Below, in pieces: positions 58,441 through 61,436 of a stretch of DNA of 64,000 nt. The stretch's first letter is position 1. Each line of letters opens with the position of its first letter. The stretch spans positions 1,224,530-1,288,529 of the forward strand of contig NZ_CP080572.1 of assembly GCF_023746595.1 (NCBI RefSeq), written 5' to 3'. Position numbers and translations under genes: made by a program. The notes below the pieces were generated by a model that saw only the letters and a program-made list of their open reading frames with translations, ran no database searches and was not told the DNA's origin. The stretch is from Thermococcus argininiproducens (GTDB lineage: Archaea; Methanobacteriota_B; Thermococci; Thermococcales; Thermococcaceae).

Positions 58441-58565
58441 AAGAAAATCATCTCTAACCAATCAATAAGTATTATTCCAATAATCTTTGATGGATGTGCT
58501 TAAAAATATTCTAAAAGAAAATCCTTTTATAAAACAAATGCCATATCGAAAACCAGGTGATGTTT

Positions 58566-59201
58566 ATGAATGCCAATATTCTTAAAGGGTTTATGAAGAA
58601 CTTCCCTCAACTTTTTGAGGAAGTAAGAGAGGGAGAAACGGTGTTAATTGAATATTCTCCAATTATCAATTCTGCCATTATTTTGTACGAGTTAATCATC
58701 TGGGCCAAAGAAAATGGCTACCAGGTGATAATAGATGATACCCTTGACACTCTGCCTATTTATAAGATTAAAATGGACTTGAAGGGCTTAAATAGTGAGA
58801 TACTGAATGACATTAAAGTAGTAAAAATTGGAGGGACATTGGACGTAGGGGATGTTATCGGACGCTTGGCCCTTAAGGAGCCCCATATAAGAGTAAAAGA
58901 GTACTTAGAAGTTGCACTCCCACACTTGGATAGTGAAAAACGAATAATTAACCCTGTTTTGGGATTTGAAAAACTTTTAATATTAAGTGAATCACCAAGG
59001 GAAGTTTTCGCTACTTTATCAATGATACTCTCATTTACCTCGAGCTTTCAGAGAACAGCATTTTATTTTGTGAATGTTAATGCGCTTGAAGAGGCTATCC
59101 CATGGGCTCTACCGCTTCTTGAAGAGATTGCAACTACTGTGGTTGAGCTAGGGAGAGTAAACAATGGTCTTGGTTTTAGTGTTAAGAACTATGAGTTTTA
59201 A
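58566..59201 (+). CDS. DUF257 family protein (second of two)
   Basis: 211 residues, paralogue of the protein at 12367: GETVLIEYSP, LIIWAKENGYQVIIDDTLDTLPIY, KIGGTLDVGDVIG and WALPLLEE. No P-loop motif. ATG at 58566 behind AGGTGATG. The TTTTATAAAAC upstream is a TATA box. Function unknown, restricted to Thermococcales. Confidence 0.8.
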   Translation: MNANILKGFMKNFPQLFEEVREGETVLIEYSPIINSAIILYELIIWAKENGYQVIIDDTLDTLPIYKIKMDLKGLNSEILNDIKVVKIGGTLDVGDVIGRLALKEPHIRVKEYLEVALPHLDSEKRIINPVLGFEKLLILSESPREVFATLSMILSFTSSFQRTAFYFVNVNALEEAIPWALPLLEEIATTVVELGRVNNGLGFSVKNYEF

Positions 59202-59318: not shown

Positions 59319-59434
59319 CAATAATTATTTAATTATTGTATTCTTTAACTCAATTTTATTTTGAATTTCATCAATTGTAAGAGAAAAAGTATTCCCTAAT
59401 ATAAAACAACAATAAAATAATAAAATAATTATTG
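59319..59434. repeat. AT-rich partition repeats, downstream pair
   Basis: CAATAATTATTTAAT at 59319-59333 and, inverted with one change, ATAAAATAATTATTG at 59420-59434, both downstream of the parB-like gene. Same core as three copies upstream of parA. The inner AATAATTATT is a perfect palindrome. Confidence 0.65.
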
Positions 59435-59444
59435 TATTATTTTA

Positions 59445-59783
59445 TCACTTAAACTCAAGCCGTCGCTTTATCTTTTCGATTTCCTTCTTTTCGGCCAGCT
59501 TTACCAATCTTCTAAATTCTTCCTCTGGTAGAACTTCCCTAAGGGCCCAGTACAGTTTTATGGCTTTTTCAAAGATCTCATTCTGTTTGCCTTCTCCCTC
59601 AGCATAAAGTAGTCTTAACAGCTTATCCGCGTCTACGCTTATGTATAGGGTTTTCATCTTCTTCTCGGTATCTTTCCTCGCATTTGTTCTGTTGTTTTTT
59701 GGTTCTTCTGTTAGGGTTCTCACGACCTCGCTGCTCATGGAAGGGAGCTTGGGCAAAGTTTTCTTTCTACTTTTACCTGACAT
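59445..59783 (-). CDS. ParB/ParG-like ribbon-helix-helix centromere-binding protein
   Basis: 112 residues: a basic, unstructured N-terminus (KSRKKTLPKL, KNNRTNARKDTEKK), then KTLYISVDADKLLRLLYAEGEGKQNEIFEKAIKL, a strand plus two helices like a ribbon-helix-helix, then a charged helix. Its start overlaps the parA stop by 11 bases. With ParA it forms a type Ib-like partition cassette and is the expected binder of the flanking repeats. Confidence 0.75.
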   Translation of the reverse strand: MSGKSRKKTLPKLPSMSSEVVRTLTEEPKNNRTNARKDTEKKMKTLYISVDADKLLRLLYAEGEGKQNEIFEKAIKLYWALREVLPEEEFRRLVKLAEKKEIEKIKRRLEFK

Positions 59784-60555
59784 TTCTAATCACACTCTCC
59801 GCAAGTTTTAAGAAAGCCTTGGATACCCTATTGTTTGGTTCGAACTCAAAAACTGGCTTACCCTCTTCTTGAGACTTCTCAACTGCAACTGCTCTTGGCA
59901 AAATTGCAACTATCGGTAAGTCAGGATATGCCTCTTTTAGCTGATCTAACCTCACCTGGGGGACTTTGCTTTGACGTGTAAATTTGTTTGCAACGATACC
60001 CATGATTTCCAAGTCTGGGTTGAGTTCAGTAGACTTTATCTCCCTGATGACATCAAGCGTTAATTGCACACCCATGACACTAAAGTACCCCAACTCAGTT
60101 GGGATTAAGACATAATCTGAGGCTCCAAGAGAGTTGATTAAGAATATTCCTAGACTTGGTGGGTTGTCAATTATTATAAAGTCATATTCATCCTCTATTT
60201 TCTCTAAAACTCTTTTGAGTCTCTGTTCACGCATGTATGCTGTCATGAGCAATCTTTCGATCGCAGAAACTTTTAGGTGGGAGGGTATGAGAGATAGATT
60301 CTCATCTATGTGGACTATGGCATCCTCAATTTGAGTCTTTTTTACTGAATTCTCTATGAGAAGTGTACCTATGTTGTTGTCGCTGTAATTTATTATATTC
60401 ATGCCGATTAGAGCAAACGTAAGGTTGAATTGGGGATCAGTATCGATTATTAAGGTATCATAACCCTTTTTAGCAAGTGCATGGGCTAAATTGAGACTTA
60501 TTGTAGTCTTTCCAACACCACCCTTTTGATTAGCAATACTGATTATAATCGCCAT
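59773..60555 (-). CDS. parA: ParA partition ATPase
   Basis: 260 residues. Deviant Walker A NQKGGVGKTTIS, IIDTDPQ, Walker B FIIIDNPPSLGI; no N-terminal helix-turn-helix. MAIIISIANQKGG is typical of Soj/ParA. ATG behind GGTGATCAA. Co-transcribed with the ribbon-helix-helix gene. A repeat copy sits in its promoter (60579). Confidence 0.92.
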   Translation of the reverse strand: MAIIISIANQKGGVGKTTISLNLAHALAKKGYDTLIIDTDPQFNLTFALIGMNIINYSDNNIGTLLIENSVKKTQIEDAIVHIDENLSLIPSHLKVSAIERLLMTAYMREQRLKRVLEKIEDEYDFIIIDNPPSLGIFLINSLGASDYVLIPTELGYFSVMGVQLTLDVIREIKSTELNPDLEIMGIVANKFTRQSKVPQVRLDQLKEAYPDLPIVAILPRAVAVEKSQEEGKPVFEFEPNNRVSKAFLKLAESVIRNVR

Positions 60556-60578
60556 TTGATCACCATAATTAAATAATG

Positions 60579-61255
60579 CAATAATTATTTAATAATTTTG
60601 CTGAATATTGGGATTCTAGTGTGAGGTTTCATTTTAAGAGACACAAAAATGTAGCTGGACTTTTGTCTGTTTGTTGAAGACAATTAATCTTCCTAATATT
60701 GATTTAAAGGATCAAGAATGGAGTTTCAGTTGCTATTTTTAGATATCTATCTTATTGTTTTATAATAGTAAAATAAAAGGTGCTCTTTCAACTCTCAAAC
60801 TTTGACTTAATTTTTTACTTAAATATATAGTTATAAATCAATTACTATAAATAATTCTCAATTACAAAATAAAATTTTTTCACAATTATTATACTTTATT
60901 GGTTTATTCTTAAGAACAAATGAATATATTATAACTAATAAAATAAACTATAGTAAAAAATACCAAATTTTTATTATTCTTGATAGTAGATAATTTATAC
61001 AAACATGTATTGATCTTCTCTGATAGGGCCGCATCTCCTGGAAAAAATGCATCACATTATTAAATAATACAATAATTATTTAATTACTTTATTATTTAAA
61101 AAGGAGAGAAAGTCAAGGGGTGAGAGAGGATTAAATTGCCATTAACATACATGACTCCTAGTGAAGATGTAGTGACAGTTCTATTGATTCTCGTTTAAAC
61201 ATCTAGGACAGGGAACAGTCGATCAATGTACCAGGAATTACAATAATTATTTAAT
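60579..61255. repeat. AT-rich partition repeats upstream of parA (parS-like candidate)
   Basis: CAATAATTATTTAAT occurs at 60579-60593 (parA promoter), 61070-61084 and 61241-61255, each with similar flanks (TTATTATTT follows copies at 61070 and 61241). The roughly 880-base gap 60556-61436 has no gene and is strongly AT-rich, so it is a candidate centromere/operator region. Nothing like an origin-recognition box was seen. Confidence 0.65.
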
Positions 61256-61436
61256 TATGTTATTATTTTATTCCTTAAGCCAGCGACATAGTAAAATACA
61301 CACTTGGGCCCATGTATGAAAAAAGCCTCAAAGAAACTTCCTATAGATGAGAATACTATCCCACCTTCTGGAAGACTCATGACATATTAGATATGCTTTT
61401 AAAGTTTAAATGCGTTATAATATGAGGTGATAAAAT

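Follow-up and report, generated by a model that had tools for sequence, protein, structure and literature searches.

The window, by which we mean the whole 64,000-nucleotide stretch of Thermococcus argininiproducens DNA analysed here, carries a parA gene and, downstream of it in the same operon, a small partner gene overlapping it by 11 bp, the two set among five arrays of a short repeat (Table 1). The ParA protein contains a deviant Walker A motif (KGGVGKTT) and a Walker B motif (IIIDNPPSLG), matched Pfam AAA_31 at 6e-53 and, against the PDB, retrieved ParA/Soj relatives (best 1e-33). As its Walker motif begins at residue 10 and the AAA_31 match covers residues 4-184, it lacks an N-terminal HTH domain. 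Alignment of the partner family (A1) showed an N-terminal tail that is basic and conserved (LPKLPSMSSEVV.TLTEEP), then a strand resembling KTLYIS and a pair of predicted helices, the right order for a ribbon-helix-helix (RHH) protein. A Pfam search with the window's 112-residue protein gave no match, and the sole PDB match of the family profile was the RHH region of the omega repressor (1irq), at a non-significant E value of 0.5. One relative of the partner matched an Arc-like repressor PHROG (6e-4), one family member matched RHH_1 at an E value of 0.25, and hhalign aligned the partner with omega weakly; an AlphaFold2 model built from two sequences was poor (mean pLDDT 57), too poor for a fold search. 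On the strand-helix-helix order and the omega and Arc-like matches we regard an RHH fold as likely. Of the gene pair originally described from the sequence, the ParA and the 112-residue reading frame are real, but direct matches to RHH proteins are weak. Both genes are open frames in five species and are under purifying selection, with dN/dS values of 0.035/0.99 (about 0.035) for ParA and 0.062/0.93 (about 0.07) for the partner.

Table 1. Genes, repeats and other features discussed in the text (window coordinates unless a contig is named)
Feature	Position	Strand	Description
parA	59773..60555	-	260-aa small ParA ATPase
Partner gene	59445..59783	-	112-aa putative ribbon-helix-helix centromere-binding protein
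Core CAATAATTATTTAAT, exact	59319, 60579, 61070, 61241	+	
Core CAATAATTATTTAAT, one mismatch	59420	-	
Distal downstream octad array	59319..59350		CAATAATT ATTTAATT ATTGTATT CTTTAACT
Octad array directly 3' of the small gene	59408..59445		contains the inverted one-mismatch core copy; lag 8 z 3.9
parA-promoter octad array	60567..60601		begins 12 bp 5' of the parA start codon; on the minus strand, AAATTATT AAATAATT ATTGCATT ATTTAATT
Upstream octad array	61054..61099		lag 8 z 3.4
Distal upstream octad array	61235..61272		CAATAATT ATTTAATT ATGTTATT ATTTTATT; lag 8 z 3.0
Conserved block	60792-60823		CTCTCAAACTTTGACTTAATTTTTTACTT, about 30 bp
DUF257 gene	58557-59201		beside the pair in some genomes
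SegAB locus (L085)	G000:C1:1482103-1483148		separate locus of the same genome

The 15-base core was found where the sequence-only reading had placed it, as four exact copies and one inverted copy with a single mismatch, and the five array positions confirmed that copies lie on both sides of the operon and in the parA promoter. When up to two mismatches were allowed, the window contained six matches, against 0.64 expected and a maximum of 3 in 100 dinucleotide shuffles. A count over the whole genome had been named as the result that could overturn the proposal, and it upheld it: in 1,946,248 bp, all matches with no or one mismatch were the five copies at the locus, which lie within 2 kb. The remaining matches carry two mismatches and represent background, since a reversed-pattern control yielded 11 hits. 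The repeat therefore exists, but the 15-mer is not its unit. Alignment with relatives revealed tandem 8-bp units (octads) approximating ATTNNATT that run outward on both strands from a palindrome, AATAATTATT, and the 15-mer corresponds to about two octads at the centre of an array. Of the five arrays, one occupies the parA promoter, two follow the small gene and the other two are upstream. Autocorrelation at lag 8 was raised in four of the five copies (z 1.8 to 3.9; only 0.9 for the copy at 59319), and Tandem Repeats Finder reported period 8 in four arrays. Octads were scored by a fixed-phase count, a PWM that mixed both octad phases having been dropped as too blurred for the window; by this count the longest octad run in the window alone was not above that in shuffles. 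An Rfam scan of the locus gave no match.

Comparison of four species showed arrays that were nearly invariant and spacers that had diverged; at the promoter array, all four were identical over the 40 bp immediately preceding parA. In one species the distal downstream array was longer by exactly one octad, and in one species the upstream array was longer by exactly 8 bp; such a change, by one complete unit, speaks for the octad as the functional unit. Conservation was lowest in the distal downstream array, which was degraded or missing in one genome (G084). These comparisons bear on the idea that the repeats arose by chance in AT-rich DNA or are the termini of a mobile element. The region is indeed AT-rich, and an identical 17-mer occurs in five other genomes, within one IS-like element, but the core is unique genome-wide, the arrays show footprint conservation and exact 8-bp steps, and they are internal to the locus and in a promoter rather than terminal. 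That explanation, which we considered extremely improbable, is refuted. The 17-mer matches in the five other genomes have near-identical flanks and are unrelated to the cassette.

The pair was present in 5 of 13 genomes of the genus, and the search of related genomes for the pair with repeats, proposed as a check, found both in these five. A 17-bp version of the motif (≤1 mismatch) occurred in 3-6 copies in each of them, all at the pair with the exception of one stray, and in 0 copies in all eight pair-less genomes, some of which are incomplete assemblies. In three pair-less genomes (G075, G077 and G081) an nreA-like gene and a small membrane-protein gene adjoin each other, and these are the genes that flank the pair in the species that carry it. 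The shorter intergenic region of pair-less species keeps a conserved block common to the parA upstream region, so insertion of one clean-ended block does not account for the difference. The AT-rich, gene-poor surroundings had earlier been taken to favour a plasmid remnant. However, a GC content as low as 23% is confined to the 0.5 kb upstream of parA, and the adjoining genes are unremarkable and syntenic; decay is likewise contradicted by the intact genes, purifying selection in five species and conserved arrays. Plasmid genes (replication, integrase or other) were not found near the pair, the flanks of which are syntenic with pair-less species apart from the DUF257 gene, an extra gene in some genomes. 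The pair lies ~660 kb from the Cdc6 gene and is therefore not origin-proximal. A scan of genome contigs returned one member of the genus together with distant ParAs; viral contigs yielded only distant ParAs and no relative of the partner. The ~30-bp block listed in Table 1, in the parA upstream region, was conserved with and without the pair and matched nothing in Rfam. In G082, three CRISPR-like repeats (GTTTCAGAAGCACTATGTAGTATGG) with ~70-bp spacing were seen downstream of the pair (L081/L054, around 1515-1680).

Most other Thermococcales carry one homologous pair directly behind ftsZ2, in canonical loci (L089-L103) where a cdrS-like RHH gene comes before ftsZ2; the window's genus keeps ftsZ2 without parA and partner there. 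The canonical operon has a homologous ParA (48-60%), a homologous partner (28-41%) and the same gene order as the window cassette, but sits behind cdrS-ftsZ2 and has no octads nearby, so partner and octads are not always together. Octads were also considered as the centromere of the canonical pair, and rejected, the three-octad matches in other genomes being scattered, several of them intragenic, and not syntenic across genera. A pattern scan of the region upstream of ftsZ2 found no conserved box as a partner site. On a Pyrococcus-like contig (G011:C3, L171, 6058-6097 and 7239-7374), we observed long contiguous octad arrays of 10 units that are perfect or nearly so (17 under a laxer score), which adjoin a DDE transposase fragment and have no ParA nearby.

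Among 72,556 plasmids, the best match to the window's ParA (58.5% identical) was on pDSM2661_1 of Methanocaldococcus jannaschii, where the neighbouring gene product was also the best plasmid match of the partner (34%). This pair, MJ_RS09090/09095, is the closest outside the order and has the same 11-bp gene overlap. Scored with a consensus drawn in knowledge of both the Thermococcus and the plasmid arrays, pDSM2661_1 contains 19 runs of at least four octads (shuffle mean 2, maximum 4), the longest being 10 units compared with 5 in shuffles. Runs are found, among other places, in the parA promoter and in an intergenic stretch ~1.2 kb past the pair; the arrays occupy about six places over 20-42 kb. 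The words ATTTTATT, ATTTAATT, ATTGTATT, ATTGCATT and ATGTTATT are common in the arrays of both. Given how the consensus was drawn, two observations can fairly be counted as independent: the lag-8 signal (z 4.2 and 5.5) and the shared dinucleotides at the two variable octad positions, where TT and TG lead in Thermococcus and TG, GT and TT on pDSM2661_1. The plasmid thus resembles the window locus in its pair, its overlap and the octad words around the pair; it differs in being a genuine plasmid with arrays at about six places, whereas the window cassette is chromosomal and its arrays are local. No published description of octad arrays on pDSM2661_1 was found in the literature searched. The shared octad words suggest that the octads are a previously undescribed euryarchaeal centromere common to Thermococcus and pDSM2661_1, and extends the predicted octad code to a classic M. 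jannaschii plasmid.

Taken together, the locus is probably a complete and functional type Ib-like partition cassette composed of a ParA, an RHH-like partner and five octad arrays. The type Ib architecture put forward in the sequence-only reading is supported by a small ParA with a deviant Walker A motif and no N-terminal HTH domain, by iterated sites (the five arrays) that include the operon promoter, and by the comparative evidence; the partner fits in its small size, downstream position and 11-bp overlap, its RHH matches (E 0.5, 6e-4 and 0.25) being weak. Two bacterial systems offer models. In pSM19035 one 7-bp repeat accommodates one omega dimer, and the ParA ATPase is activated only when four or more repeats are contiguous (PMC9499535). 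The delta/omega system resembles the window locus in its small ParA, small putative RHH partner and several iterated, promoter-overlapping arrays, and its short direct and inverted repeats can be likened to the octads; it differs in the repeat itself (7 bp, WATCACW, against the 8-bp unit here), and the match to omega is weak (E 0.5) and the cassette here lies on an archaeal chromosome. In TP228 the RHH protein ParG has flexible N-terminal tails that stimulate the ParF ATPase and represses its own operon, and the parH centromere consists of degenerate boxes arrayed with AT-rich spacers between them (PMC7308502). A small ParA (ParF), a small tailed partner, an array of boxes and autorepression, the last proposed for the window locus, are the points of likeness; the box sequence differs and the searches run found no similarity between ParG and the partner.

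By analogy with these systems we infer DNA binding by the partner, stimulation of the ParA ATPase and a role in segregation. Dimers of the 112-residue protein would bind octads cooperatively and side by side, at about one dimer per octad, and binding would spread both ways from the palindromic centre to coat each array. This coating would repress the parA promoter and would present the N-terminal tails of the partner to nucleoid-bound ParA-ATP; the tails may then stimulate ATP hydrolysis, and the resulting ParA gradient could carry or position the array-bearing DNA. Counting against a partition role are the weakness of the RHH assignment (no Pfam match, a pLDDT of 57 and the weak hhalign result), the order-wide relatives without octads and Pyrococcus octad arrays without a nearby ParA, and a longest run in the window not above shuffles. 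RHH proteins are commonly repressors, and the octads might be operators only, through which the partner autoregulates the operon and represses its neighbours, with ParA having another task such as the positioning of a protein complex. The overlap of one array with the parA promoter would fit this, as would the place of the canonical relatives in a cdrS-ftsZ2 operon, but an operator does not need two arrays past the last gene and two more 0.5-0.7 kb upstream, and the arrays on pDSM2661_1 spread over some 21 kb. We therefore consider operators alone an unlikely explanation and prefer the partition cassette.

With regard to where the cassette came from, its sites are purely local, as on plasmids, which makes it likely that it derives from a plasmid module or moves as one does. 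Trees grouped the window ParAs with the ParA of pDSM2661_1 (support 95/83 and 97/100), and in alignment A1 the C-terminal part of the partner was closer to the plasmid protein than to the canonical one. Capture from a plasmid is plausible because plasmid exchange between Thermococcales and Methanocaldococcus has been documented (PMC3543421). The alternative, which is compatible with a partition mechanism, is vertical descent: the pair would be the order-wide ftsZ2-parA-partner module, moved to a new place in this genus and not imported. Nearly all other Thermococcales do carry the pair beside ftsZ2, the window's genus having ftsZ2 without it; moreover, the plasmid ParA branch is long, and a topology in which the ParAs of the order form a clade that excludes the plasmid ParA was not rejected (p-AU 0.21). 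The tree support, the C-terminal part of the partner and the lack of octads at canonical loci speak against relocation, which we regard as possible, if rather doubtful. A plasmid origin is mildly favoured. The fuller proposal, that a captured plasmid-type module acts as an active second chromosomal partition system and that ATTNNATT defines a new family of octad centromeres shared with Methanocaldococcus plasmids, is made tentatively, as falling somewhat short of probable.

The same genome, like others of the genus (L096, L095, L102 and L181-L185), contains a separate SegAB locus (Table 1), the SegB of which matched a solved SegB at 9e-12. The window cassette is like SegAB in joining a ParA to a small DNA-binding partner in an archaeon, but its partner is not a SegB homologue, the A1 profile giving no match to SegB, and its octad cores lie at the pair locus only, without the dispersion over the chromosome looked for as a mark of SegAB. 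Since a separate SegAB locus with 7-bp arrays of its own exists in the genome, the cassette is, by these sequence comparisons, not SegAB. The locus is best read as a plasmid-like cassette, complete in itself, that the chromosome retains as a second system beside SegAB; it may benefit the host as a second segregation site or by interfering with incoming plasmids that use the same site. The characteristics and positions of archaeal centromeres were listed as an open question in a 2016 review (PMC5120986), and with archaeal centromeres almost unknown the locus offers an exact, short candidate sequence, with an ATPase and a probable binder, in hyperthermophiles. One genome would then present two patterns, octads confined to one locus and heptads scattered around segAB. 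A 2025 study did not find SegB sites near segAB in T. sibiricus (PMC12284271). Among the Thermococcales genera compared, SegB occurred in the window's genus alone. In the nine genomes viewed, tandem 7-bp repeats (AASTTNN) lie on both sides of segAB. Arrays of up to seven units recur at several sites on the chromosome of each genome, grouped around segAB (L210-L227) and spread over some hundreds of kilobases; on G000:C1 there are seven such places, at about 1308.7, 1483.2, 1499.5, 1538.5, 1549.7, 1657.1 and 1714.0 kb. A reversed heptad control gave 0-2 matches. One listed place (L216) contains no run, and at the stray site, 821 kb, the run is short. The heptad arrays are candidate SegB sites of Thermococcus. 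The SegB-like partner begins KKKALGRGLEA, which we take to resemble the N-terminal motif of bacterial ParB, and some of the heptad arrays (L210, L218 and L225) look orthologous between species.
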